64,000 nt of DNA, taken from NCBI RefSeq assembly GCF_019059575.1, contig NW_024881586.1, positions 1-64,000 of the forward strand, written 5' to 3'. Each line of letters starts with the position of its first letter. Position 1 is the stretch's first letter. Below the pieces are notes generated by a model that saw nothing but the letters and a program-made list of their open reading frames with translations, was not told where the DNA came from and did not search any database. The translations under genes were made by a program, and so were the position numbers. Source of the stretch: Amphibalanus amphitrite. Taxonomy: Eukaryota; Arthropoda; Thecostraca; Balanomorpha; Balanidae. Shown here piece by piece: positions 2,420 to 61,833 of this stretch.

Positions 2420-3230
2420 AGGTGTAGCTATCATTTGACCCGGCTAACCACAGCATGAGCCATGAATGCCTTCTGAGACTTTAACTTTTCAAAGTTGTAC
2501 AGATTTGCGAAAAAAGAGCGGATTTTTATCGATGAGATGTCGAAATTGGAGGTACCTGTTATTTTTGGAGTCGAACAAAGTTATTGCTAGGGAAGTCGAC
2601 CATTTTCTCCATTGCGCACGCATTGTGTCAAAACGGTGAAAGATATCGACTTCAAACCTTCGCCATCGTGTCCCATGGTCACTTTTATGTGCGTTTGGAT
2701 GGCATATCTGTAACTGGCGCGCTGAGAGTGCCGGAAGTCCGTAGGTTCAAGCCCAACTGCGGCGACGGGTAAAATAAAAATATCCAAAACAGATTGTATG
2801 TTGTGATTATCTACGTTTCTACGCTCCCTATAGGTGCCAATAATACTGCACTGCAGTTCCTCGCTGTGTTGTCCAGAATGAGCATTATTAAGCGACGGAC
2901 ACTTCTCAAAAATAGCGCCGGACGCTGAACCTCTTATGACGTCATAACTTCGCAACCTGACTTGACCCGGTCAAGTTTCGTTTATCAAACTATGACCAAT
3001 ACTTGCCTCAACATCTGTGGGAAGTTTTATTACGACCCATCAAACAATGTAGGTACCACCGGCAGAAAGCCTCCTCAGGCATTAGCACATACTTCGTGAA
3101 CATACGGCCGAAGGCTGTACCTACATACCTCTTATGACGTCATAATTCCATAACTTGACATGATCCGTTTAACTTTTTAACCAAATATGCGCAAAAGGTG
3201 CCCAAAAAGGTATCGCAAATTTCAGTGTGC
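2420..3230 (-). repeat. Interspersed repeat containing TATGACGTCATAA
   Basis: Contains two blocks reading CTCTTATGACGTCATAA followed by a CTTGAC-type run, plus a segment with AAGATATCGACTTCAAACC. Diverged reverse complements of the same blocks, in the same order, occur at about 12180-12840 inside the TTAA-type element. These two regions are old copies of one repeat family in opposite orientation. The palindrome TGACGTCA is a CRE-like octamer, but I see no evidence that it regulates anything here. Confidence 0.7.
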
Positions 3231-5520
3231 TGCACATCCCCGCTTTTGCACCATCGCGAGAACAAAGCCTCGTGTTGACCCTCCCCTGCCTGTTAGAGGA
3301 TATAGAACCCCTCATATTGAAGGCTATATTTCTAAAACTAGCAGGGAAAAGCATAAAAAATCGACTACGGTTGGAAAGTACAACACTAGGCTAATCTTAT
3401 TATGCCGTCAGAATTAGGTGCCCGAAATCACATGTTTGAAAAATATAATTCAAGGTATCCTGAGAATTTCCTCTAATATTTTTGAAACCTGCTGCAAGCT
3501 CACCATATATAGGATCAAACGAGTGATTCCAATGAAGTTGGTTATGAATACGATCACAACATGCCCCGGTAGAAGGTATTGTAAAGTTCAGAGCGCTGGG
3601 CATCCCCGTTTTTGCACTGTCGCGAAAATAAGGTTTCACATCGACCCTCCCCTGACTGTTGTAGGATATAGAACCCCTCATATTGAAGGCTATATTTCTT
3701 AAACTAGCAGGGAAAAGCAGAAAAATCGACTACCGTTGGAAAATACAACACTAGCCCAATCTTATTATGCCGTCATAATTAGGTGCCCGAAATCACATGT
3801 TTGAAAAAAATGTAACTCAATGTATCCTTAGTATTTCCTCTAATATTTTTGAACATGCTGCAAGCTCACTTTTATAGGGTCAAGTGAGTGATCCCAATGA
3901 ATTCGGTTATGAATACGATCACAACATGCCCCTGTAGAAGGTATTGTAAAGTTCAGCGCGCTGGGCATCCCCGTTTTTGCACTATCGCGAAAATAAGGCT
4001 TCGCATCGACCCTCCCCTGCCTGTTGTAGGATATAGAACCCCTCATATTGAAGGATATATTTCTTAAACTAGCAGGGAAAAGCATACAAAATCGACTACG
4101 GTTGGAAAGTGTAACACTAGCCCAATCTTTTTATACCGTCAAAATTAGGTGCCCGAAGTTACATTTTTATAAACGTATAATTTAATACATCTTTAATATT
4201 TCCTCTAATATTTTTGAAACCTGCTGCAAGCTTACTATATATAGGATCAAGTGAGTGATCCCAATGAATTCGGTTATGAATACGATCACAATATGCCCCT
4301 GTAGAAGGTATTGTAAAGTTCAGAGCGCTGGGCATCCCCGTTTTTGCACTGTCGCGAAAATAAGGTTTCGCATGGACCCTCCCCTGCCTGTTGTAGGATA
4401 TAGAAACCCTCATATTGAAGGCTATATTTCTTAAACTAGCAGGGAAAAGCAGAAAAAATCGACTACGGTTGGAAAGTACAACACTAGCCCAATCTTACTA
4501 TGCCGTCATAATTAGGTGCCCGAAATCACATGTTTGAAAGAAATGTAACTCAATGTATCCTTAGTATTTCCTCTAATATTTTTGAAAAATGCTGCAAGCT
4601 CACTTTTTATAGGATCAAGTGAGTGATCCCAATGAATTCGTTTATGAATACGATCACAACATGCCCCTGTAGAAGCTATTGTAAAGTTCAGCGCGCTGGG
4701 CAACCCCGTTTTTGCACTGTCGCGAAAATAAGGTTTCGCATCGACCCTCCCCTGCCTGTTGTAGGATATAGAACCCCTCATATTGAAGGCTATATTTCTT
4801 AAACTAGCAGGGAAAAGCAGAAGAAATCGACTACGGTTGGAAACTACAACACCAGCGCAATCTTATTATGCCGTCAGAATTAGGTGCACGAAATCACATG
4901 TTTGAAAAAAATATAATTCAATGTATCCTTAATATGTCCTCTGATATTTTTGAAACATGCTGCAAGCTTACTATATATAGGATCAAGTGAGTGATCCCAA
5001 TGAATTCGGTTATGAATACGATCACAATATGCCCCTGTAGAAACTATTGTAAAGTTCAGCGCGCTGCGCATCCCCGTTTTTGCACTATCGCGAAAATAAG
5101 GCTTCGCATCGACCCTCCCCTGCCTGTTGTAGGATATAGAACCTCTCATATTGAAGGCTATATTTCTTAAACTAGCAGGGAAAAGAATACAAAATCGACT
5201 ACGGTTGGAAAGTGCAACACTAGCCCAATCTTTTTATACCGTCAAAATTAGGTGCCCGAAGTTACATTTTTATAAACGTACAATTTAATACATCTTTAAT
5301 ATTTCCTCTAATATTTTTGAAACATGCTGCAAGCTGCAAGCTGCAAGCTTACTATATATAGGATCAAGTGAGTGATCCCAATGAATTTGGTTATGAATAC
5401 GATCACAATATGCCCCTGTAGAAGCTATTGTAAAGTTCAGCGCGATGCGCATCCCCGTTTTTGCACCATCGCGAATATAAGGCTTCGCATCGACCCTCCC
5501 CTGCCTATTGTAGGATATAT
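3220..5520. repeat. Tandem array of about 366-bp units, seven landmarks
   Basis: The landmark AGGATATA recurs at 3297, 3663, 4028, 4395, 4763, 5131 and 5512, spaced 366, 365, 367, 368, 368 and 381 bp. The last gap is longer because of an extra CTGCAAG triplication near 5330-5350. Each unit carries CATCCCCGTTTTTGCAC, CGAAAATAAGG and CCTCCCCTGCC words. A small antisense open frame recurs in each unit only because the unit repeats; its length varies and I do not treat it as a gene. A diverged partial unit lies downstream at 6600-6850. Confidence 0.9.
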
Positions 5521-42913: not shown

Positions 42914-45900
42914 ATGAATACCTACAAAGTGGTAAGCCTGCGCCATGACTGTCCCAGTCCCCACAATAATTGCTGTTTTATTGCAGAATTTAGAGAGCTG
43001 TTTATAAAAAAAACACTAATTAAATTATACATTTTCATGGATGACTCTGGTACTCACATTATTATCATGGACAGCGCTATGCCAGTACAGCAGCTTGGTG
43101 CTGCAGCCTTGACTGACTGGTTCATGTCAGATCCGACCAGGGCTCCCGTTAGTGCCCAAACACTGATGAGATTGTGTCAACGCCTGATATTGGGTCATTT
43201 CCTCCTCTTACCTCTGTATCTGCACCATTGCGCTCATCACTGCAAGTTTTCTTTAACTAATTGACCAACAATTATGATATTTTATGGAAGAGTCACACTT
43301 TGCAGTTTGCACTTTGCAGACTGCAGTCTGTTGCTCTACATGCATAATGCATATTCATGTAAATTTGAATATATTAAATGCATGCAGGAGACTCAATGAG
43401 ACACCACATTCTAACATCCTCTCTGTTGCTCTGATCTCAGGTGCAGGACTCGAAGAGGGAGGAGTTCCGCAAGTACCTCGAGAAGAATGGGGTGATGGAC
43501 GTGCTGACCCGGTGTCTGGTCAGCTTGTACGAGGAGCCCGAGAAGCCAGCTGATGCTCTGCAGTACGTGCGGAACACGCTGGGCGCCGCCAGCCCAGACA
43601 AGGTGGAGCTGGAGAGCCTCCGATTGGTGGTTGCCGAAATGAAGGAAAAGGTCAGAGAGTGGATGTGCGGCCTGATCCTCGGGGGATAAGGCTGGATGGA
43701 GATTCGATATTTTGGGACTGTTTTCGAGATGGTTTGGCCTTTGGACCTTCCCAGTGAGCCATTTTGACCTTTGGATGAATGCATTTACGATCTTACTTGT
43801 GGCGACGGCTAGAATGACAGTCTGGCCCATTCGAATTTCTGCAGGATTCCTGACCACCGGTAGTTTGAGTAACATTATCTGTGTGGTTGAGTACGGAGTA
43901 TGGAGTGACGAGTGATGACCGTGATGACCGTCCTTATCGGACGGTGGCTGTGTGCACAGGTAGCAGTGTGGCATGGATTGCATGACTTGTATGACGGGTG
44001 TGTGCGACACTAGGCAGTGAGGCACTGACTGTATTCTTGACTCTGTCAGATGAATGACTGCCATGTGTCTGTATCTGTCAGATGACTGACAGATCTGACA
44101 GACATATGACTGTCAGATGACTGTGACAACTATGTGACTGTGTCAGATGACGGTGATGGAGGAGGAGAACAAGGAACTCCGGGAGCGGCTGGCCGGGCTG
44201 ACTGTCATATGACTGTGTCCTGTCAGATGACGGTGATGGAGGAGGAGAATAAGGAGCTCCGGGAGCGGCTGGCCGGGCTGACTGTCATATGACTGTGTCC
44301 TGTCAGATGACGGTGATGGAGGAGGAGAATAAGGAGCTCCGGGAGCGGCTGGCCGGGCTGACTGTCATATGACTGTGTCCTGTCAGATGACGGTGATGGA
44401 GGAGGAGAATAAGGAGCTCCGGGAGCGGCTGGCCGGGCTGACTGTCATATGACTGTGTCCTGTCCTGTCAGATGACGGTAATGGAGGAGGAGAATAAGGA
44501 GCTCCGGGAGCGGCTGGCCGGGCTGACTGTCATATGACTGTGTCCTGTCAGATGACTGTGATGGAGGAGGAGAATAAGGAGCTCCGGGAGCGGCTGGCCG
44601 GGCTGACTGTCATATGACTGTGTCCTGTCAGATGACTGTGATGGAGGAGGAGAATAAGGAGCTCCGGGAGCGGCTGGCCGGGCTGACTGACATATGACTG
44701 TGTCCTGTCAGATGACAGTTATGGAGGAGGAGAATAAGGAGCTCCGGGAGCGGCTGGCCGGGCTGACTGTCATATGACTGTGTCCTGTCAGATGACGGTG
44801 ATGGAGGAGGAGAATAAGGAGCTCCGGGAGCGGCTGGCCGGGCTGACTGTCATATGACTGTGTCCTGTCAGATGACTGTGATGGAGGAGGAGAATAAGGA
44901 GCTCCGGGAGCGGCTGGCCGGGCTGACTGTCATATGACTGTGTCTGTCACTATCTGTCAGATGACGGTGATGGAGGAGGAGAATAAGGAGCTCCGGGAGC
45001 GGCTGGCCGGGCTGACTGTCATATGACTGTGTCCTGTCAGATGACTGTGATGGAGGAGGAGAATAAGGAGCTCCGGGGGCGGCTGGCCGGGCTGACTGTC
45101 ATATGACTGTGTCCTGTCAGATGACGGTGATGGAGGAGGAGAATAAGGAGCTCCGGGAGCGGCTGGCCGGGCTGACTGTCATGTGACTGTGTCCTGTCAG
45201 ATGACGGTGATGGAGGAGGAGAATAAGGAGCTCCGGGAGCGGCTGGCCGGGCTGACTGTCATATGACTGTGTCCTGTCAGATGACGGTGATGGAGGAGGA
45301 GAATAAGGAGCTCCGGGAGCGGCTGGCCGGGCTGACTGTCATATGACTGTGTCCTGTCAGATGACGGTGATGGAGGAGGAGAATAAGGAGCTCCGGGAGC
45401 GGCTGGCCGGGCTGACTGTCATATGACTGTGTCCTGTCAGATGACGGTGATGGAGGAGGAGAATAAGGAGCTCCGGGAGCGGCTGGCCGGGCTGACTGTC
45501 ATGTGACTGTGTCCTGTCAGATGACTGTGATGGAGGAGGAGAATAAGGAGCTCCGGGAGCGGCTGGCCGGGCTGACGGTGGACGCTGACACCGCTGACGG
45601 GGCCGAGGAGGGCGACACAGCCGCCGCCGACTCCACCGCCGCAGACGCCAAGGAGAAAAAGGTATTGGTAATACTAAAGCCTGCGTTCGGACGGGCCGGT
45701 TTTCGCGTGGAATTTCCACGCTGAGGAATTCCGTCCGGGCATCGCGAAATGAGGAATCCCGCGGGATCCCGCGAAACGGGTTTGTCCGAACGGCCGTTTT
45801 CGTTAGGAATTCCTCGGCGTGGAAATTCCGCGCGAAAAACGGCCCGTCCGAACGTACGGAAAGCGCCGCTCTAAAGTGTCCGTTGACTCTCTCAAAAAAG

Positions 45901-46136
45901 GCAGCCACTAGAGAGACGTCTGCGAATGGTGTTTTTTGACGCGCATCTCATGTTAGTGAAGTCGGATTAGATTCGACTCTGGGACGTTGGGTACGAGATA
46001 GCCAAAAACCTGGTTTGTCACTTTCCTGATGCCGCTTGACGTTACGAGGATGTTGAAGTTTGTGTACCATACCATGATTTTTCACAGCTCGGACGGCAAT
46101 CATGTCAACCCCTCCTTTTTCTCTGTGTTGCAGTAA
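42914..46136 (+). CDS. MYCBP: c-Myc-binding protein (MYCBP/AMY-1) homologue, four exons
   Basis: Predicted exons are 42914-42931 (MNTYKV, donor GTAAGC), 43441-43650, 45521-45661 and a stop TAA forming the first three bases of the last exon (46134-46136, after TTTTTCTCTGTGTTGCAG). All joints are phase 0 and the product is about 123 residues; vertebrate MYCBP is about 103. Exon 2 carries the family hallmarks DSKREEFRKYLEKNGV, LYEEPEKPADAL, then LGAA and ELESLRLVVAEMKEK. Exon 3 gives the C-terminal zipper-like helix (EEENKELRERLAGL) and an added acidic, Ala-rich tail. Family members bind the N-terminal region of c-Myc and A-kinase anchoring proteins and also occur in cilia and the nucleus. Intron 2 holds the 18-copy array of the exon-3 acceptor; intron 3 holds a short palindromic element. 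The exon-2 acceptor could also lie 6 nt downstream (CAG before GAC). Confidence 0.9.
44137..45577 (+). repeat. 18-copy tandem array of the MYCBP exon-3 acceptor and 57 coding bases
   Basis: The landmark ATGGAGGAGGAGAA occurs 18 times from 44156 to 45530. Fifteen of the 17 intervals are 80 bp; the other two are 85 and 89 bp. Each unit has the pyrimidine/AG acceptor (TGTCCTGTCAG in most), 57 bp coding MTVMEEENKELRERLAGLT, then GTCATATGAC, which brings an in-frame TGA two codons later. Only the last copy (exon 45521-45661) continues into the tail and a donor. Copies are nearly identical; the first has GAACAAGGAACTCC instead of GAATAAGGAGCTCC and one (45050) has a Glu-to-Gly change. Confidence 0.97.
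45684..45854. mobile_element. Short palindromic element in MYCBP intron 3
   Basis: Arms of 49 bp (45684-45732 and 45806-45854) are inverted with 3 mismatches and begin CGTTCGGACGGGCCG. The 73-bp centre is GC-rich, with another small palindrome (ATCCCGCGGGAT). No clear target duplication was found. It lies 22 bp after the exon-3 donor. Confidence 0.85.
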
Positions 46137-50032: not shown

Positions 50033-51358
50033 TCACTGACAGTCCTCTTCTAGGAAGCATAGCTTGATCGCAGGTCTGGTGTAGATTCTCCCGCCAGAGG
50101 TTCTCAGCTCAGCGGACCTCACTATGCCGTCTTCTCCAGGAAATACTCTTGTGATACGAGCCAATGGCCACGACCCCCTGGGCATATTTGTGTCTGTCAT
50201 GAGAACCAGATCACCCTCGCGTAGGTTTCTGGTTTCTCGGTGCCACTTGCTTCTGCGCGACAAAGTAGGCACGTATTCTCGCGTCCATCTCCGCCACACG
50301 TGCTCAGCGACTGCTTCAGCTTGTCTCCAACGCCGACGACTGCTCAAGTCTCCGTTTCTCGTCAGAGCTGGCGCTAGATGATGAGAAGCGTGACCCAACA
50401 GAAAGTGATTGGGTGTTAGCGCCTCGGCGTCAGTTGGGTCGGAGCTTACGTAGGTAAGCGGCCGACTGTTCACCATGTGTTCAACCTCTGCGAACACGGT
50501 CAGCAGGACTTCGTCCGTCAATACCTGTGAGCCAACTACGACTTGCAGGCACGTCTTCACAGATCTGACCATGCGTTCCCACACCCCACCCATGTGGCTC
50601 GCGGCTGGTGGATTGAAGCGCCAGTCAATTTCGTAGGAACTCAGTTTCTCTGGCATCTGCGCCAGAACCCCTCGGAGCTCTTGACGAAGCTCACGGTTGC
50701 TGCCGACGAAGTTTGTCCCACGGTCTGAGAAGATGACTTCCGGCTGCGATCTGCGAGCAAAGAATCTTCTGAGGGCCATGATACAACTGTCTGTATCTAA
50801 TGAGTGGGCCACTTCTAGATGTACAGCTCGCGTCGCCAGACAAGTCACCAACAGTCCGTATCGGGTCTCCGTTTTCCTGAATCTTTTCACATGCAGCGGC
50901 CCGAAGAAGTCGACACCAGCGTTTCGAAATGGCCGTCCAGCTTCGAGTCTCTCCCGAGGGAGATCAGCCATCCGCGGTGGCACAGGGGCGGCCCTGCGAC
51001 GGCGACAGAAGGAGCAGTCACGAAGCTGCGCCTTGATGGCTGAGCGTCCTTGCGGAATCCAGTACTTCTGGCGCACCAAGTTCAGCGTGTGCTCAGCTCC
51101 TGCATGACCATGACGATAGTGTTTGTTCTTGATGACAAGCCGAGCCAGCTCACTTTGCCGTGGGAGGATGATAGGGTGTTTGGCTTCCTCCGAGATGCAT
51201 GCCTTGCCGATGCGTCCCCCGACTCTGATCAGGCCGTCCTCGTCCTGAAACGGGGCCAGAGGAAGCAGAGAACTGGACGTAGGCAGTGGCCGTTGCTGCG
51301 TCAGACAGCGCACTTCTTCAGCGTAGGACTGCGCCTGTTCCTTGGCAACGACCCACAC
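50033..51358 (-). CDS. BEL/Pao integrase region of copy A
   Basis: Open frame of 441 codons. A zinc-binding HHCC-like segment comes first (HYRHGHAGAEHT, later CSFC). The integrase core follows with its acidic residues in VDFFGPLHV, IFSDRGTNFVG and the Glu of MGGVWERMVRSVK. The C-terminal segment typical of BEL elements contains GDLVLMTDTNMPRGSWPLAR. The enzyme would join retroelement cDNA to host DNA. It lies in a different frame from the upstream gag-pol, although BEL elements normally encode one polyprotein, so this copy has a frame break just upstream (between about 51359 and 51420). Confidence 0.93.
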   Translation of the reverse strand: MWVVAKEQAQSYAEEVRCLTQQRPLPTSSSLLPLAPFQDEDGLIRVGGRIGKACISEEAKHPIILPRQSELARLVIKNKHYRHGHAGAEHTLNLVRQKYWIPQGRSAIKAQLRDCSFCRRRRAAPVPPRMADLPRERLEAGRPFRNAGVDFFGPLHVKRFRKTETRYGLLVTCLATRAVHLEVAHSLDTDSCIMALRRFFARRSQPEVIFSDRGTNFVGSNRELRQELRGVLAQMPEKLSSYEIDWRFNPPAASHMGGVWERMVRSVKTCLQVVVGSQVLTDEVLLTVFAEVEHMVNSRPLTYVSSDPTDAEALTPNHFLLGHASHHLAPALTRNGDLSSRRRWRQAEAVAEHVWRRWTREYVPTLSRRSKWHRETRNLREGDLVLMTDTNMPRGSWPLARITRVFPGEDGIVRSAELRTSGGRIYTRPAIKLCFLEEDCQ

Positions 51359-54300
51359 CTCCGCTGCTTGCAGTTCCGAACGTGAGAGTGGTCCGGTGGC
51401 CTTCGGCGGCTGTCCGGCTGGCCTTCATGTTGCGCGTAAAGCGCATCATCCATCCAACGACTCGCTTGAACTTCCCCCAGGATGAAAACCTCGCTGGAAT
51501 CGGTTCCTCTGGTGTGCACTTGGTAGTCGTGAATACCAGCGCGTCCCGCATCTCTTCATCCTGTGCCAGCTGGGCTAGCTCTTCTTGGGGTGGCCACTGG
51601 CTGACGTCCTCCCTCAAGAAGGTGGGACCCGTCAGCCACCTGCCGTCCTGACTGAGCATGAGCACTGAAACCCCTCTGGAACAGTCGTCAGCGGGGTTGA
51701 GCTTCCCAGGAACGTGGAGCCAGCACGCGTTGTGGGTCAGCTCGTGAATCTCAGCCAGTCGGTTGGCCACGAAGGTCTTGAACCGTCGGGTTTCATTACC
51801 AAGGTACTGCTGAACGACCTTGCTGTCCGTCCAGCAGAAGATGTCATCCGGTGGCTGAGTGATCTCACCGAGGACGGTAGCCACCAGACGCGCTCCAAGA
51901 ACGGCTGCTTGCAGCTCCAGACGGACAATTGATAGTCGCTTCAGTGGAGCGACTCGGCACTTGCCGATCAGGAAGCGACAGTGGTGTAACCCATCGCTCG
52001 AAGTTGTCCTCCAGTATACCACAGCGCCGAACGCACTCTCTGACGCATCGCAGAACACATGAAGTTGGCGTCGCAGTGTCCCTGGGCCGCTGGGGTTCAC
52101 GCAGCGTTGCATCACGACTTCGTTCAGCTTCTCTGCTTCACTCAGCCACTCCAACCATTGGCTCAGCTCAGGTTCGGGTAGTGGCTCGTCCCACTCCAGA
52201 TGTTTCCACCAGAGTCGCTGCATCATCATCTTTGCTCTCACGGTAACAGGAGCAGCAATCCCCAGAGGGTCAAAAATTGTTGACACTTTGCTGAGCACAC
52301 CACGCTTGGTTGCACTCACTTCTTTGGCTTGGAGACGAAACCCCAATGTGTCCTCGTCTTCTTCCCATGCGATGCCCAGCGTCTTTTCAGCGGTGTGCGT
52401 GCTCCTGAGACATAGGCTCGCAGAGGCGCTGGCTTTCTCACTCTCTGGAACGCCTTCCAGCACAGCGGGGAAACTGCTTCTCCACTTCGTGAGGTGAAAA
52501 CCTCCTCTCTCCAGTGCCTCCTTCACGTCAGCGTACAGCTGTTTGGCGGCGTCTTCCGTCATGCAAGAGAACAGGCAATCGTCCATGTAGAACGACTTTG
52601 CCAGTTGCTCGGGACTTCTGCTGAGAATCTTGTCTGTCTCCGCTCCATGGTCCAGAAGTGCTTTTCTCAGCACGTAGTTGGCCGTTGCCGGTGATGACTT
52701 CGCCCCAAAGATGACCACCTCCATCTGATAGACGTCAGGCTTGCGGTGTCGCTCCATATCTCGCCATAGAAAGCTCGATGCAGGCTGGTCTTCTGTCCGG
52801 ATCCTCACCTGATGATACATCTGCTTGATGTCCGCGGTCACAGCGATCAGACCTTCCCTGAAGCGCATGATCACCCCAGGAAGGCTTTGTAGTAGATCTG
52901 GACCTGTGATGAGCTTCGAGTTCAGTGATACACCTTGGTATGTTGCCGCAGCGTCAAAAACGATTCTCAGCTTCCCTGGCTTGTTCGGATTCACTACTGC
53001 GTGGTGTGGCAGATACCAACGCTTCTCCTTCGGTTCGTCCGCTTCTTCTGCTGAGAGCTTCCTTGCGTGACCATCCTTCACATATCCGTCGATGATGGCT
53101 TGGTACCTTGTAGCCAGTTCTGGCTGCTTATCGAGTTTCCTCTCGATGGACTGAAGACGTCGGTACGCTTGGTTCCAGTTGTCCGGTAACATCGGTTCGT
53201 CTTCACCCCACAGAAGTCCAGCTTCATATCTGTCCCCCACCTTCCTGGTCTGCTGATCCAAGATTCGCATAGCTCTGAGATCTTCTTGAGATCGTGCATC
53301 AGAGCTGTTGATCATGGTGCCGAAGGCCTCGGTCGTCCACCAGTCTTGGACCAACTCTTGCAGATCCTCCACAGCGTCTTCGGGAGCACGTTGACGCACG
53401 AACATGACTTGCCGCATTGTGCTTGGAATCAGGGTGGATATCGATCCCGTCAGGGTCCAGCCAAAGTCTGTCCGGATAGCGACGGGCATTCCGGGGCCTC
53501 CCACCCTGACCTCTCGCTGCAGCACAGCTTCCAGAATGTTGGCACCAAGTAGGAGCTCGACGTGTGCGCCGTTGTACTGCTGTAGGTCCAGGTCCTGCAA
53601 GTGCTTCCAGCTGCGAAGCTGCTTGCTACTCATGCTGGGTGGGGCCACGTTCAACCTTGGCACAGACCACACCTCGGGCACGACTATTCGATTTCTGCTG
53701 GTCGCTGTGCTCAGAGGACTAACCGTCAGCTGAACTCGAAGAGACGACTGTCTGGTACCGCTTCCTTCGATGTTCTGTAGCTGCAGATTCTCTCGGACTC
53801 CAGGGACCCCAACCTCTTCCAAGACATCTTCACAACAGAGCGATGTCTGCGCTCCCGGGTCCAGCAGTGCTACTACGTCTCTCTCCCCGTTTGGGCCGTG
53901 AATCCGCACCGGCACCAACTGCAGCAGTGTGTCTGTCGTCTCTGTGAGAGCCGTGCCGACGATGCGACTTCCTTCTCGTGCCACTGTTTTTGGTTGTGTT
54001 TGGCTTTCTTCATTACAAGCAGCGCTTCTGTCCACATGTATGAGTCGGTGATGAGATGCATTACATCCATTCAAGTTGCATCGTCTTGCAGAGCGGCAAT
54101 CCCTCATGAAGTGACCCTTGTTCAGGCAGCCCCAACACAGTCGTTCCTTGCTCACTACGACCAGCCTCTCCTCCACCGTCTTCGACTTGAACTCCGTGCA
54201 ATCCTGAAGCTTGTGCTGTTCCTTGCACAGGACACAGAACCAGCGACGTCGGTTGTTTTCCGTCTGGGAAGACGTAGCCGACGTAGTCAGAGTTGTTCGT

Positions 54301-55892
54301 CGCGCCGAGGTCTCCCGTGCACTCGCGGATGGCCTTTTCCTTTCTGGATCGCGGTTGTGGTTGGCTGAGTTTCTCAAGATGGCAGTCTCTGTCTCCAGCC
54401 ACTTGCTGAAGATCTCCAGATCGGGCTGCTTGGGATGCATCTGATGCACTTCTCGTCCCCACTGGTAGGACAACTCCGCAGGAAGCTTCAATACTACTCG
54501 ACGCAGGTTCTCGATGGCTCTCAGATCATTGTAGTGGTTCAGAGCGCGCAGCGTCAGCACAGTGTTGCTAACAGCTGAACTGAACCTCTCCACTGAGGCG
54601 ATGTTGTTGATTGAAGGAGCTGGAGTTGCAAACATGGAGCTGAGATATGCTTGACTGATGTCGCCTTCTCGACCGAAACGCTCGTGCAGCCTTGCCAACG
54701 CTTGGTGATACATCTTGCCATCGAACAAGAATCCCTCGATGGCTTGATGGGCAACTCCATCTACTGCTTGTTGTAGATGCGCCATCCGCTCCGTGTCAGA
54801 GAGAGACGCCTGATCGTGAACCAGTGCTCTGAAGAGGCTGATCCAACGCGGCCACTCACTTGGATCTCCCGTGAACCGCGGCAAGCTGAGACGCGGAACA
54901 CTGTTCGAGAAAGCTGCTGACATCCCATGAGGTGGATGCCCAGGCTTCTCTTGACCTTTGTTGTTTGATGTCCAGTTCTTTGGGTTCAAAGATGAACCAT
55001 CTACTTCCGGTGCTGCCTTGGGTCCGTCGTTCTGGTCTTGTGATCTTGAGTCAACCACATTGTCGGGCGCGTCCCGGCAATTTGGTGTTTCGGTGGCTTG
55101 ATCCAACCCCGTACATTCAGCAGACCCTTTGCTGTCCTTGATGGCGGTGTCATCGAAGTCATGTCGACGGTCCCAATTAAGTTCATCTTCCGCAGCGCGG
55201 TACATATGTAGCTTTCGAGCCGCCCTGGCTCTAGCCCTTTCTGCTTTCTTTAGTTCCAGTGCATCGTCACGTTCTTCTAAGTTCCATTGTTCTTGCTGTC
55301 GTAACTTCTCTGCTTCCAATCGCGCCATTTCTTTCTCCAAGCGTTCTTTTCTGATACGACGTGCCTCTTCGAGCTGTGCTCTAACATCGTTCACCTGGCG
55401 GTCGGCATCATCCAACTCAACTGCCGCTTCTCGTGACCGGACTGAGGCGGCCGTCTCTGCAGACGTGTGTGACCTGGCACGACTTCGAGCGTGACGGGAG
55501 GTGGCAGCTGATGACTTGGCTTCATCCAACCCCTGAAGATACTCCTGGATCTTCCCTTGAATAGCCGACTCTTCTTCTTCAAGATTATCAGCGTATCCCT
55601 GAGCTTCGTCCAGTTCTGCGTCATTGAGTTTGCTTTCATACTCCTGATGAGCTTTTCTCAAATCAGAAAAGGCTTCTTTCAGCCTTCCGTTCACCTCCTG
55701 GATGCGATCGCGGTTCCGCTGTCTTGCTATCTCTGCCTCTAACACCTTGGACACCCTCGTCACGACAGCCCTCTTGATACCACGCAGTCGTCGCAGATCA
55801 GCAAGCTCTTGATCTCTAACATCCTTAAAAGCTCCATCTGCAGTGGGATCGGGCCGTTTGACATCCTTTGCCTCTTCTTTTTCTATCCCCAT
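51318..55892 (-). CDS. BEL/Pao gag-protease-RT-RNase H of copy A
   Basis: Frame of 1524 codons. Residues 1-240 are coiled-coil-rich (Glu/Lys/Arg/Ala). The gag domain is at about 335-510 (LPRFTGDPSEWPRWISLF). Cys-rich zinc-binding motifs lie at about 550-615, including CWGCLNKGHFMRDC. Protease is near 674, where the active-site triplet reads DPG instead of D-[S/T]-G. The reverse transcriptase has TADIKQMYHQVRI and the YMDD box near 1100. RNase H has FCDAS near 1279, the Glu of RLELQAA and the Asp of WTDSK. The C-terminal ~30 residues are read out of the native frame. Start chosen at the ATG 51 bp inside the LTR end. It would copy element RNA into DNA in cytoplasmic particles. Confidence 0.95.
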   Translation of the reverse strand: MGIEKEEAKDVKRPDPTADGAFKDVRDQELADLRRLRGIKRAVVTRVSKVLEAEIARQRNRDRIQEVNGRLKEAFSDLRKAHQEYESKLNDAELDEAQGYADNLEEEESAIQGKIQEYLQGLDEAKSSAATSRHARSRARSHTSAETAASVRSREAAVELDDADRQVNDVRAQLEEARRIRKERLEKEMARLEAEKLRQQEQWNLEERDDALELKKAERARARAARKLHMYRAAEDELNWDRRHDFDDTAIKDSKGSAECTGLDQATETPNCRDAPDNVVDSRSQDQNDGPKAAPEVDGSSLNPKNWTSNNKGQEKPGHPPHGMSAAFSNSVPRLSLPRFTGDPSEWPRWISLFRALVHDQASLSDTERMAHLQQAVDGVAHQAIEGFLFDGKMYHQALARLHERFGREGDISQAYLSSMFATPAPSINNIASVERFSSAVSNTVLTLRALNHYNDLRAIENLRRVVLKLPAELSYQWGREVHQMHPKQPDLEIFSKWLETETAILRNSANHNRDPERKRPSASARETSARRTTLTTSATSSQTENNRRRWFCVLCKEQHKLQDCTEFKSKTVEERLVVVSKERLCWGCLNKGHFMRDCRSARRCNLNGCNASHHRLIHVDRSAACNEESQTQPKTVAREGSRIVGTALTETTDTLLQLVPVRIHGPNGERDVVALLDPGAQTSLCCEDVLEEVGVPGVRENLQLQNIEGSGTRQSSLRVQLTVSPLSTATSRNRIVVPEVWSVPRLNVAPPSMSSKQLRSWKHLQDLDLQQYNGAHVELLLGANILEAVLQREVRVGGPGMPVAIRTDFGWTLTGSISTLIPSTMRQVMFVRQRAPEDAVEDLQELVQDWWTTEAFGTMINSSDARSQEDLRAMRILDQQTRKVGDRYEAGLLWGEDEPMLPDNWNQAYRRLQSIERKLDKQPELATRYQAIIDGYVKDGHARKLSAEEADEPKEKRWYLPHHAVVNPNKPGKLRIVFDAAATYQGVSLNSKLITGPDLLQSLPGVIMRFREGLIAVTADIKQMYHQVRIRTEDQPASSFLWRDMERHRKPDVYQMEVVIFGAKSSPATANYVLRKALLDHGAETDKILSRSPEQLAKSFYMDDCLFSCMTEDAAKQLYADVKEALERGGFHLTKWRSSFPAVLEGVPESEKASASASLCLRSTHTAEKTLGIAWEEDEDTLGFRLQAKEVSATKRGVLSKVSTIFDPLGIAAPVTVRAKMMMQRLWWKHLEWDEPLPEPELSQWLEWLSEAEKLNEVVMQRCVNPSGPGTLRRQLHVFCDASESAFGAVVYWRTTSSDGLHHCRFLIGKCRVAPLKRLSIVRLELQAAVLGARLVATVLGEITQPPDDIFCWTDSKVVQQYLGNETRRFKTFVANRLAEIHELTHNACWLHVPGKLNPADDCSRGVSVLMLSQDGRWLTGPTFLREDVSQWPPQEELAQLAQDEEMRDALVFTTTKCTPEEPIPARFSSWGKFKRVVGWMMRFTRNMKASRTAAEGHRTTLTFGTASSGGVGRCQGTGAVLR

Positions 55893-55925
55893 CTTCTCCT
55901 GTTCAGCTCACTAGTCGCAATCCGG

Positions 55926-57474: not shown

Positions 57475-57525
57475 TTTCTGGTCCTCCGTGGGCCGGATTG
57501 CGACCAGTGAGCTGAACAGGAGAAG

Positions 57526-60500
57526 ATGGGGATAGAAAAAGAAGAGACAAAGGATGTCAAACGGCCCGATCCCACTGCAGATGGAGCTTTTAAGGATGTT
57601 AGAGATCAAGAGCTTGCTGGTCTGCGACGACTGCGTGGTATCAAGAGGGCTGTCGTGACGAGGGTGTCCAAGGTGTTAGAGGCAGAGATAGCAAGACATC
57701 GGAACCGCGATTGCATCCAGGAGGTAAACGGAAGGCTGAAAGAGGCTTTTTCTGATTTGAGAAAAGTTCATCAGGAGTATGAAACCAAACTCAATGACGC
57801 AGAACTGGAGGAAGCTCAGGGATACGCTGATAATCTTGAAGAAGAAGAGTCGGCTATTCGGGGGAAGATCCAGCTGTACCTTCAAGAGTTGGATGAAGCC
57901 AAGTCATCAGCTGCCACTTCCCGTCACACTCGAAGTCGTGCCAAGTCACACACGTCAGCAGGCACCGCAGTTTCAGTTCGATCCAGAGAGGCTGCTGTGG
58001 AACTGGAGGACGCTGATCGCAAGCTGCGGGACCTCCAAGCTCAAGTGGAAGAGAGTCGTCGGAACATGAAAGAAAGACAGGAATTAGATGAACGCGACAG
58101 GGTGCTACAGCTCAGAATAGCTGAAGAGGCCCGCGACAGAGCTGCTCGGAAGGTGCACATGTATCAGGCTGCGGAAGACGAATTGAACTGGGATCGTCGG
58201 CATGATTTCGACGAAGCAGCTGTCAAAGGAAGAAAGGGATCTGCTGAAGGTGCGGGGGTAGATCAAGCCGCCGAACCACCGCATTGCACGAGCGTACCCG
58301 ACAATGTGCCTGGTCCAAGACCACAAGGATCTAAAGCTGCTCCGGAAGTGGAGGTGGATGGTTCATCTCTGAACCCAGACAACTGGACATCAAGCAGCAA
58401 AGGGCAGGAGAAGCACGGGCATCCACCTCCTGGGATGTCAGCTTTTACAAACAGTGTTCCACGTCTTAATTTGCCGCGGTTCACAGGCGAACCAAGTGAG
58501 TGGCCGCGCTGGATCAGTCTCTTCAGAGCACTGGTTCACGATCAGGCGTCTCTCTCTGACACGGAGCGGATGGCGCATCTACAACAAGCAGTTGATGGAG
58601 TCGCCCATCAAGCCATCGAGGGATTCTTGTTCGATGGCAAGATGTATCAACAGGCGTTGGCAAGGCTGCACGAGCGTTTCGGTCGAGAAGGCGACATCAG
58701 TCAAGCATATCTCAGTTCCATGTTTGCGACCCCAGCTCCTTCAATCAACAACATCGCCTCAGTGGAGAGGTTCAGTTCAGCTGTCAGCACCACGGTGCTG
58801 ACGCTGCGCGCTCTGAACCACTACAATGATCTGAGAGCCATCGAGAACCTGCGTCGAGTAGTATTGATGCTTCCTGCGGAGTTGTCCTACCAGTGGGGAC
58901 GAGAAGTGCATCAGATGCATCCCAAGCAGCCCGATCTGGAGATCTTCAGCAAGTGGCTGGAGACAGAGACTGCCATCTTGAGAAACTCGGCCAACCACGA
59001 CCGCGATCCAGAAAGAAAAAGGCCATCCGCGAGTGCACGGGAGACCTCGGCGCGACGAACAACTCTGACGTCGGCCACGTCTTCCCAGACGGAAAACAAC
59101 CGACGTCGCTGGTTCTGTGTCCTGTGCAAGGAACAGCACAAGCTTCAGGATTGCACGGAGTTCAAGTCGAAGACGGTGGAGGAGAGGCTGGTCGTAGTGA
59201 GCAAGGAACGGCTGTGTTGGGGCTGCCTGAACAAGGGTCACTTCATGAGGGATTGCCGCTCTGCAAGACGATGCAACTTGAATGGATGTAATGCATCTCA
59301 TCACCGACTCATACATGTGGACAGAAGCGCCGCTTGTAATGAAGAAAGCCAAACAGAACCAAAAACAGTGGCACGAGAAGGAAGTCGCATCGTCGGCACG
59401 GCTCTCACAGAGACGACAGACACACTGCTGCAGTTGGTGCCGGTGCGGATTCACGGCCCAAACGGGGAGAGAGACGTAATAGCACTGCTGGACCTGGGAG
59501 CGCAGACATCGCTCTGCTGTGAAGATGTCTTGGAAGAGGTTGGGGTCCCTGGAGTCCGAGAGAATCTGCAGCTACAGAACATCGAAGGAAGCGGTACCAG
59601 ACAGTCGTCTCTTCGAGTTCAGCTGACGGTCAGTCCTCTGAGCACAGCGACCAGCAGAAATCGAATCGTCGTGCCCGAGGTGTGGTCTGTGCCAAGGTTG
59701 AACGTGGCCCCACCCAGCGTGAGTAGCAAGCAGCTTCGCAGCTGGAAGCACTTGCAGGACCTGGACCTACAGCAGTACAACGGCGCACACGTTGAGCTTC
59801 TACTTGGTGCCAACATTCTGGAAGCTGTGCTGCAGCGAGAGGTCAGGGTGGGAGGCCCCGGAATGCCCGTCGCTATCCGGACAGACTTTGGCTGGACCCT
59901 AACGGGATCGATATCCACCCTGATTCCAAGCACAATGCGGCAAGTCATGTTCGTGCGTCAACGTGCTCCCGAAGACGCTCTGGAGGGTCTGCAAGAGTTG
60001 GTCCAAGACTGGTGGACGACCGAGGCCTTCGGCACCATGATCAACAGCTCTGATGCACGATCTCAAGAAGATCTCAGAGCTATGCGAATCTTGGATCAGC
60101 AGACCAGGAAGGTGGGGGACAGATATGAAGCTGGACTTCTGTGGGGTGAAGACGAACCGATGTTGCCGGACAACTGGAACCAAGCGTACCGACGTCTTCA
60201 GTCCATCGAGAGAAAACTCGACAAGCAGCCAGAACTGGCTACAAGATACCAAGCCATCATCGACGGATATGTGAAGGATGGTTACGCAAGGAAGCTCTCA
60301 GCAGAAGAAGCGGACGAACCGAAGGAGAAGCGTTGGTATCTGCCACACCACGCAGTAGTGAACCCGAACAAGCCAGGGAAGCTGAGAATTGTCTTCGACG
60401 CTGCGGCAACATACCAAGGTGTATCACTGAACTCGAAGCTCATCACAGGTGCAGATCTACTACAAAGCCTTCCTGGGGTGATCATGCGCTTCAGGGAAGG

Positions 60501-61833
60501 TCTGATCGCTGTGACAGCGGACATCAAGCAGATGTATCATCAGGTGAGGATCCGGACAGAAGACCAGCCTGCATCGAGCTTTCTATGGCGAGATATGGAG
60601 CGACACCGCAAGCCTGACGTCTATCAGATGGAGGTGGTCATCTTTGGCGCGAAGTCATCACCGGCAACGGCCAACTACGTGCTGAGAAAGGCACTTCTGG
60701 ACTATGGAGCGGAGACAGAAAAGGTTCTCAGCAGAAGTCCCGAGCAACTGGCAAAGTCGTTCTACATGGACGATTGCCTGTTCTCTTGCATGACGGAAGA
60801 CGCCACCAAACAGCTGTACGCTGACGTGAAGGAGGCACTGGAGAGAGGAGGGTTTCACCTCACGAAGTGGAGAAGCAGTTCCCTCGCTGTGCTGAAAGGC
60901 GTTCCAGAGAGTGAGAGAGCCAGCGCCTCTGCGAGCCTATGTCTCAGGAGCTCGCACACCGCTGAAAAGACGCTGGGCATCGCATGGGAGGAAGACGAGG
61001 ACACATTGGGGTTTCGTCTCCAAGCCAAAGAAGTGAGTGCAACCAAGCGTGGTGTGCTCAGCAAAGTGTCAACAATCTTTGACCCTCTGGGGATTGCTCC
61101 TCCTGTTACCGTGAGAGCAAAGATGATGATGCAGCGACTCTGGTGGAAACATCTGGAGTGGGACGAGCCACTACCCGAACCTGAGCTGAGGCAATGGTTG
61201 GAGTGGCTGAGTGAGGCAGAGAAGCTGAACGAAGTCGTGATGCAACGCTGCGTGAACCCCAGCGGCCCAGGGACACTGCGACGCCAACTTCATGTGTTCT
61301 GCGATGCGTCAGAGAGTGCGTTCGGCGCTGTGGCATACTGGAGGACAACTTCGAGCGATGGATTACACCGTTGTCGCTTCCTGATCGGCAAATGCCGAGT
61401 CGCTCCATTGAAGCGACCATCAATTGTCCGTCTGGAGCTGCAAGCAGCCGTTCTTGGAGCGCGTCTGGTGGCTACCGTCCTCGGTGAAATCACTCAGCCA
61501 CCGGATGACGTCTTCTGCTGGACGGACAGCAAGGTCATCCAGCAGTGCCTTGATAATGAAACTCGACGGTTCAAGATCTTCGTGGCCAACAGACTTGCAG
61601 AGATTTACGAGCTGACCTGCAACGCGTGCTGGCGTCGGAATCAAATGACGCCCAGGTCAACTCGCCAACGAGAGGCCGAACCATCGACCCTTCCGTCTGC
61701 TCCCAGTGGCCTCGCCATCGAGGGGCTGGGAGAGACAACACATCAGCATCTCCGCAACCGTGAGATAAACCAGCGAGAATTACACGATCCTGACACAACG
61801 CTTTCAAGCGTTGGAGGACCAAGGGTCCTCTGA
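57526..61833 (+). CDS. BEL/Pao gag-protease-RT polyprotein of copy B, C-terminally deleted
   Basis: Frame of 1435 codons, native to about residue 1369. It has a coiled-coil N terminus (shorter and diverged from A around 180-220), gag domain near 316 (LPRFTGEPSEWPRW), zinc motif near 563, protease near 654 with DLG in place of D-[S/T]-G, and RT with YMDD near 1079. RNase H has the Asp of FCDAS near 1258, then Glu and Asp. At 61632 the sequence after NACW jumps to the 3' end of the internal region (GTCGGAATCAAATGACG), and the last ~66 codons are unrelated read-through. No integrase, so the copy cannot move by itself. Confidence 0.95.
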   Translation: MGIEKEETKDVKRPDPTADGAFKDVRDQELAGLRRLRGIKRAVVTRVSKVLEAEIARHRNRDCIQEVNGRLKEAFSDLRKVHQEYETKLNDAELEEAQGYADNLEEEESAIRGKIQLYLQELDEAKSSAATSRHTRSRAKSHTSAGTAVSVRSREAAVELEDADRKLRDLQAQVEESRRNMKERQELDERDRVLQLRIAEEARDRAARKVHMYQAAEDELNWDRRHDFDEAAVKGRKGSAEGAGVDQAAEPPHCTSVPDNVPGPRPQGSKAAPEVEVDGSSLNPDNWTSSSKGQEKHGHPPPGMSAFTNSVPRLNLPRFTGEPSEWPRWISLFRALVHDQASLSDTERMAHLQQAVDGVAHQAIEGFLFDGKMYQQALARLHERFGREGDISQAYLSSMFATPAPSINNIASVERFSSAVSTTVLTLRALNHYNDLRAIENLRRVVLMLPAELSYQWGREVHQMHPKQPDLEIFSKWLETETAILRNSANHDRDPERKRPSASARETSARRTTLTSATSSQTENNRRRWFCVLCKEQHKLQDCTEFKSKTVEERLVVVSKERLCWGCLNKGHFMRDCRSARRCNLNGCNASHHRLIHVDRSAACNEESQTEPKTVAREGSRIVGTALTETTDTLLQLVPVRIHGPNGERDVIALLDLGAQTSLCCEDVLEEVGVPGVRENLQLQNIEGSGTRQSSLRVQLTVSPLSTATSRNRIVVPEVWSVPRLNVAPPSVSSKQLRSWKHLQDLDLQQYNGAHVELLLGANILEAVLQREVRVGGPGMPVAIRTDFGWTLTGSISTLIPSTMRQVMFVRQRAPEDALEGLQELVQDWWTTEAFGTMINSSDARSQEDLRAMRILDQQTRKVGDRYEAGLLWGEDEPMLPDNWNQAYRRLQSIERKLDKQPELATRYQAIIDGYVKDGYARKLSAEEADEPKEKRWYLPHHAVVNPNKPGKLRIVFDAAATYQGVSLNSKLITGADLLQSLPGVIMRFREGLIAVTADIKQMYHQVRIRTEDQPASSFLWRDMERHRKPDVYQMEVVIFGAKSSPATANYVLRKALLDYGAETEKVLSRSPEQLAKSFYMDDCLFSCMTEDATKQLYADVKEALERGGFHLTKWRSSSLAVLKGVPESERASASASLCLRSSHTAEKTLGIAWEEDEDTLGFRLQAKEVSATKRGVLSKVSTIFDPLGIAPPVTVRAKMMMQRLWWKHLEWDEPLPEPELRQWLEWLSEAEKLNEVVMQRCVNPSGPGTLRRQLHVFCDASESAFGAVAYWRTTSSDGLHRCRFLIGKCRVAPLKRPSIVRLELQAAVLGARLVATVLGEITQPPDDVFCWTDSKVIQQCLDNETRRFKIFVANRLAEIYELTCNACWRRNQMTPRSTRQREAEPSTLPSAPSGLAIEGLGETTHQHLRNREINQRELHDPDTTLSSVGGPRVL

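Follow-up and report, generated by a model that had tools for sequence, protein, structure and literature searches.

We analyzed a 64,000-nucleotide stretch of the Amphibalanus amphitrite genome (contig NW_024881586.1, positions 1 to 64,000; hereafter the window), which carries a MYCBP gene on its forward strand. The coding part of exon 1 (MNTYKV; 42914–42931) ends at a GTAAGC donor, exon 2 spans 43441–43650 (donor AAG|GTCAGA), the 141-nt exon 3 spans 45521–45661 (donor AAG|GTATTG), and the first codon of exon 4 is the stop codon TAA (46134–46136), followed by the 3′ UTR. Spliced translation of these exons gave a product of 123 residues, identical over its whole length (123/123 aa) to the A. 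amphitrite record "c-Myc-binding protein-like" (P0002, an NCBI model), which bore out the gene identity and reading frames proposed in an initial annotation of this DNA. Among relatives, structures have been solved for a flagellar-associated protein (7som) and c-Myc-binding protein (2yy0). A Pfam scan of 20 proteins gave P0002 and a second A. amphitrite model, P0001, one weak match each, below the cut-off.

Several other features were observed in the window. The exon 2 acceptor region (43430–43450) reads CTCAG|GTGCAG|GAC, possible tandem acceptors 6 nt apart; use of the second would lose the Val-Gln pair that is present at this position in P0002. Intron 3 contains a near-perfect fold-back (45684–45854) that begins 22 nt past the exon 3 donor; its 49-nt arms are 94% complementary and are separated by 73 nt. 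The RNA of 45655–45880 folds at −130 kcal/mol (z −10), and the fold-back, which looks like a MITE-type insertion, could affect use of that donor. At 3207–5519, TRF reported 6.3 tandem copies of a 368-bp unit, with 89% matches. Two opposed long open frames, at 51318–55907 on the reverse strand and 57511–61833 on the forward strand, have Pao peptidase, DUF1759, and reverse transcriptase domains (BEL/Pao-type retroelements), and integrase zinc-binding and DUF5641 domains were found at 50033–51424 on the reverse strand.

Intron 2 (43651–45520; 1870 nt given the last acceptor) holds a tandem array that runs to the start of exon 3 and into it (44141–45577, forward strand). TRF reported 44141–45576 with a period of 80, 17.8 copies, 96% matches, and a score of 2648. 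Cutting at each TGTCAG|ATG yielded 18 copies of a 57-nt stretch, starting at 44147, 44227, and so on to 45521, and these two results together confirmed the 18 tandem copies of the initial annotation, the coordinates of which were good to within a few bases. The 57-nt stretch encodes MTVMEEENKELRERLAGLT, with a single exception in copy 12, in which G replaces the second E of ELRERL. Each of the 18 units therefore spans an intron–exon boundary, composed of a TGTCAG acceptor and 57 exonic bases, as had been proposed. The gaps between units had been given as 23 bp; this is true of 15 of the 17 spacers, with one of 28 nt and one of 32 nt. All 17 spacers end in TGTCAG, and 16 start with GT. Copies 1–17 are intronic. 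Copy 18 begins exon 3 and, in agreement with the initial annotation, is the only one from which the acidic tail and the donor at 45661 are reached. The intron stretch just upstream of the array (44043–44140) has three further acceptor-like TGTCAGATGA sites, at 44044, 44076, and 44111.

Reading the array as a long protein was rejected, with open stretches in 44001–45700 of at most 78 codons on the forward strand and 113 on the reverse. Rfam gave no matches at gathering thresholds, and two array units folded only slightly better than shuffled sequences (z −1.9; 7/200 shuffles did as well). The 2-kb bin containing the array (44001–46000) has the strongest GC skew of the window's 32 bins (+0.29), with a G-rich mRNA-like strand. 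G-richness of this strand may promote R-loops and repeat instability.

Splice signals and predicted products of the 18 acceptors

We joined exon 2 in silico to each acceptor. Copies 1–17 all gave 97 residues and then TGA, and copy 18 gave 123 residues. The initial annotation had predicted precisely such a product of about 97 residues from any of the first 17 acceptors, ending in a TGA two codons past the helix unit. The stop was present in 17/17 cases; the codons leading into it had been named as GTC ATA or GTC ATG, and these were found in 16 copies (GTC ATA TGA in 14, GTC ATG TGA in two), the remaining one reading GAC ATA TGA. Exon 3 would measure 221–1515 nt from acceptors 1–17 versus 141 nt from the last, and the upstream stops would lie 155–1449 nt before the exon 3/4 junction, consistent with the earlier claim of a stop far 5′ of this joint. 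A stop codon more than ∼50–55 nt upstream of the last junction marks an mRNA for nonsense-mediated decay (NMD). As the distance exceeds ∼55 nt for 17/17 copies, the products of all 17 upstream acceptors would be predicted NMD targets.

Nothing local favors the last acceptor, because the upstream sequences are near-identical and some of the earlier copies are richer in pyrimidines. Relative to copy 18, the preceding 20 nt show no more than one base difference in copies 2–4, 6–10, and 12–17. Pyrimidines make up nine of the 16 upstream positions in most copies, 11 in copies 5 and 11 (the two preceded by the longer spacers), and eight in copy 1; the corresponding counts for exons 2 and 4 are 12 and 14. 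Copies 2–18 all have a branch-like CTGAC, which starts 34 and 38 nt upstream of the exon for copies 5 and 11, respectively, and 29 nt upstream for the other 15. The motif is formed by the last coding bases of the copy before, and it was absent within 40 nt upstream of copy 1 and of exon 4. CTGAC is frequent by chance, so its branch-like role is suggestive at most.

Acceptors this similar bring to mind a rheostat coupled to NMD. The 18 near-equal acceptors would share spliceosomes, a longer array would lose more transcripts to NMD or to the 97-residue protein, and the dose of full-length MYCBP would be set by array length, variable between barnacles, or by a splicing factor. That 17/17 upstream choices stop two codons past the helix unit agrees with such a device, yet identical stops are automatic when one unit is copied. 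The branch-like CTGAC that each of copies 2–18 receives from its upstream neighbor also fits, with the proviso that it is common by chance. An AlphaFold2 model of MYCBP (28 sequences, mean pLDDT 74.6, pTM 0.34) placed the repeated unit (residues 77–95) within a helix (58–101) and gave the tail (102–120) a pLDDT below 50; the 97-residue form would keep the helix, with the 19-residue unit inside it, but lack the acidic tail. On balance we regard such a rheostat as unlikely, in part owing to the behavior reported for similar arrays in lancelets (see below).

The initial annotation had further argued that the copies compete with each other and do not add up. This is likely in practice but not by necessity. 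Scored with human donor frequencies, the GT at the end of the copies gave about −7 in 16 of the 17 upstream copies (there is none in copy 7), compared with 4.1, 2.8, and 0.2 for the three real MYCBP donors. The copy-end donor, ACT|GTCATA, is very weak, with 71% of the window's GTs scoring the same or better; the exon 3 donor is moderate, with 9% scoring as well. The copies are thus likelier to act as competing acceptors than as additive exons, because the GT at their ends is a very poor donor. On the other hand, skipping one copy would leave an intron of at least 103 nt with GT–AG ends, and the P0001 model adds copies in frame.

A second gene model and variation of the array

P0001 is a second A. 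amphitrite model, 198 residues long, from a contig of 1,236,363 bases, and contains the 19-mer three times. One copy carries ELWERL, one carries TAMEEE, and one is standard; two of them adjoin as GLT|MTV. The odd residues of the ELWERL and TAMEEE copies occur in none of the 18 copies here. The spacer in P0001 has 21 codons and ends in ADCHVTVTVTICQ, the closest spacer in the window being the one before copy 11. P0001 also differs in its end after exon 3 and looks like an automatic model.

Taken at face value, P0001 would point to the 57-nt copies as optional cassette exons, joined in frame by copy-skipping GT–AG introns and lengthening the helix by 19 residues per copy. The 57 nt amount to 19 codons, the spacers start with GT (16/17) and end with AG (17/17), and a protein of 198 aa with three 19-mers, two of them adjoining as GLT|MTV, is what such splicing could produce; the excess of synonymous variants described below is also compatible. 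Set against this are the very weak ACT|GTCATA donor (matched or exceeded by 71% of the window's GTs), the distance of mostly 23 nt between adjacent copies, the automatic appearance of P0001 and its different end after exon 3, and P0002, which lacks extra copies. We judge optional cassettes to be improbable, more so than the rheostat.

We searched the 807.6-Mb assembly (807,550,619 bases) for further copies of the locus. Among the best candidates scored, all 17 matches to exon 3 DNA and all 19 matches to the P0001 protein were at MYCBP on a single contig (C89, that of the window), and with either query no second haplotype was among the matches listed. The 1,236,363-base contig of P0001 was not among the 41 contigs C52–C92 (of 2644 in this assembly, whose numbering roughly follows length), C89 included. 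P0001 probably comes from another assembly. With respect to length polymorphism, this one model differs from the array here in its variants and in having a longer spacer, and it is very likely that haplotypes have different versions of the array, in sequence if not in length. A study of another barnacle describes extreme diversity, about 5% in coding regions (PMC8270832), and against this background haplotype differences of the kind seen in P0001 come as no surprise.

These comparisons also bear on whether the assembler could have expanded a shorter array. The near-identity of the units would fit such an error, but the array is an irregular succession of seven different 57-mers and five different spacers. 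Moreover, P0001, on a different contig and one absent from the 41 of 2644 contigs C52–C92, has three copies, two with residues absent from the copies here, and for this reason we consider an assembly artifact highly improbable, the least probable of the alternatives. The array is very probably real.

Relatives P0003–P0005, P0068, and P0121–P0124 are known as predicted proteins only. P0121 (720-base contig) has 14 in-frame codons before exon 3 that are unlike a spacer or the end of a copy, indicating that no copy lies directly upstream of exon 3 there. P0122–P0124 start at the exon 3 ATG and hence are uninformative on upstream copies. P0068 and P0122 are each on 19,543-base contigs, probably one contig; in P0068 the reading frame continues across intron 2 to LCQMT, a peptide that a TGTCAGATGAC-like site would give.

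Proposed origin and tolerance of the array

We compared the spacer with the intron upstream of the array. The spacer together with its exon flanks aligned to 44055–44087, which resembles it, with a score of 39. The maximum was 22 across 124 other pieces of the window and 32 across 300 shuffles, none of which reached 39. The bare 23-nt spacer scored 23 against the pre-array intron; other pieces reached at most 22, yet three of 300 shuffles attained the same score. The motif TGAC lies at the junction of the exon and intron pieces and is common to both. The three TGTCAGATGA sites already present in the pre-array intron may represent an older generation of small boundary repeats.

The 18 copies comprise seven distinct 57-mers, with a mean pairwise identity of 98%, and neighboring copies were not significantly more similar than in shuffled order (0.11). 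Private variants were found in copies 1 and 18 and in inner copies 5, 8, and 12; the edges of the array are not clearly special, since inner copies have private variants too. Five of six variable exonic sites are synonymous, compared with an expectation of 24%–26% (P about 0.004–0.006 in a post hoc test). In copies 1–17 alone the count was four of five (P 0.013–0.019); with the two amino acid variants of P0001 included it was five of eight (P about 0.02–0.03); and with three-state sites taken as separate events it was seven of eight (P 0.0003–0.0005), all of these likewise post hoc. We prefer the per-site count over that of separate events. The synonymous excess would fit copies recycled through the coding position and would also fit translated copies.

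Other minisatellites were found when twenty 10-kb stretches, drawn from 20 contigs and totaling 200 kb (5 kb of it N), were sampled. Arrays with a period of at least 40 and at least four copies were present in five places (six TRF rows with 69%–90% matches, one scoring above 2000). Since minisatellites are common in this genome, some should hit exon boundaries by chance.

We consider it likely that the MYCBP array of A. amphitrite is a boundary minisatellite of the kind called "mirages" (a name for tandem intron–exon boundary repeats that goes back to a 2002 paper on lancelet Adh3, Nucl Acids Res 30:2871, as cited in PMC3087553), in which the last copy is spliced, stray products go to NMD, and the array is nearly neutral. 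A brief TGAC match would have allowed recombination between exon 3 and an intron end that already had short TGTCAGATGA repeats; the acceptor and 57 coding bases would thereby have been duplicated, and the resulting 80-bp unit would then have spread by unequal exchange. Splicing would occur mostly at the last copy through exon definition, because it alone has the real donor 141 nt downstream of its acceptor. Stray splicing to copies 1–17 would meet an early stop and the mRNA would be removed by NMD, leaving the array nearly neutral. A role of NMD in shielding weakly spliced new introns has been argued previously (PMC2809761).

Gene models provide evidence on both sides of this passive reading. 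P0002, annotated on the window's own contig, has one copy and the tail, matches the 123-aa product of the last acceptor, and would be consistent with the last copy being the boundary at which MYCBP is actually spliced. P0001, in contrast, places two further copies in the protein. Tolerance of the array is more probable than its use as a switch. The initial annotation had proposed a length-variable splicing switch, a suggestion that seems unlikely given the one copy and tail of P0002 and the reported neutrality of lancelet mirages for splicing.

If the last of 18 near-identical acceptors is always chosen, MYCBP would be a natural test of exon definition versus use of the first good AG, with an acceptor sequence held almost constant across choices. 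The array also suggests that boundary minisatellites are not peculiar to lancelets and may arise wherever a genome is rich in minisatellites, with the potential to give rise to new introns or to isoforms that depend on array length.

Comparison with known boundary repeats

The initial annotation knew of no such structure in MYCBP. For barnacle MYCBP this stands within a search of open-licence PMC papers, none of which contained "barnacle" and "MYCBP" together, but the kind of structure has had a name since 2002. Titles and abstract starts of the open-licence PMC papers among the matches listed mentioned no such array, whether in MYCBP or in any arthropod gene. The barnacle array is the first in an arthropod among the literature matches listed, of a kind already described in lancelets.

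Duplications at or near splice boundaries have been linked to intron gain. In the potato RdRp gene, a duplication across the boundary produced a new unit carrying an acceptor, a branch site, and enhancers (PMC4974935). In Drosophila, also an arthropod, tandemly duplicated coding sequence that includes a proto-splice site is proposed as the source of gained introns, and premature stops are reported for 18/18 individual sequences (PMC2891723). As described in these papers, such duplications made new introns, whereas in the barnacle there are 18 copies and no new intron was seen; the Drosophila events duplicate exonic sequence, and the barnacle array an existing acceptor.

Two human VNTRs offer further parallels. 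The FAM20C VNTR lies across an intron–exon junction and is said, second-hand, to affect alternative splicing (PMC5941971); compared by description only, the likeness is that the repeat spans a splice boundary. The VNTR in intron 18 of ABCA7 has 25-bp units, each starting with a splice donor, and retention of one unit leads to a frameshift and a premature stop (PMC5954066). Its length is variable and was associated with splicing and expression, which speaks for a rheostat in the barnacle, and the same report describes no effect of length on NMD. ABCA7 offers an intronic donor and was tested experimentally; the barnacle array offers an acceptor and a coding start. By analogy, ABCA7 indicates that splice sites supplied by a repeat array can have consequences.

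The closest counterparts are the lancelet mirages, described for Adh3, BflGb6, BflGb9, PGBD5, and troponin C (PMC3087553; PGBD5 and troponin C in PMC3902484), which resemble the barnacle array in being tandem boundary repeats with many units keeping splice signals. In each tandem unit of BflGb6, the 3′ end of an intron is joined to the 5′ part of the exon that follows it, and two haplotypes have six and three units (PMC3087553). This is the same boundary as in the barnacle, while BflGb9 has the reverse one. RT-PCR suggested that splicing of BflGb6 was undisturbed, and its authors add that the repeats could yield alternative transcripts (PMC3087553); the normal splicing reported for lancelet mirages argues against a rheostat. 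Splicing of the lancelet globin was assessed by RT-PCR, and that of the barnacle array is predicted from sequence. In the lancelet globin, as described there, edge copies are special, whereas the edges of the barnacle array are not clearly so. Finally, the barnacle array differs from the lancelet mirages as described in having 18 copies and the same kind of stop from each earlier copy.
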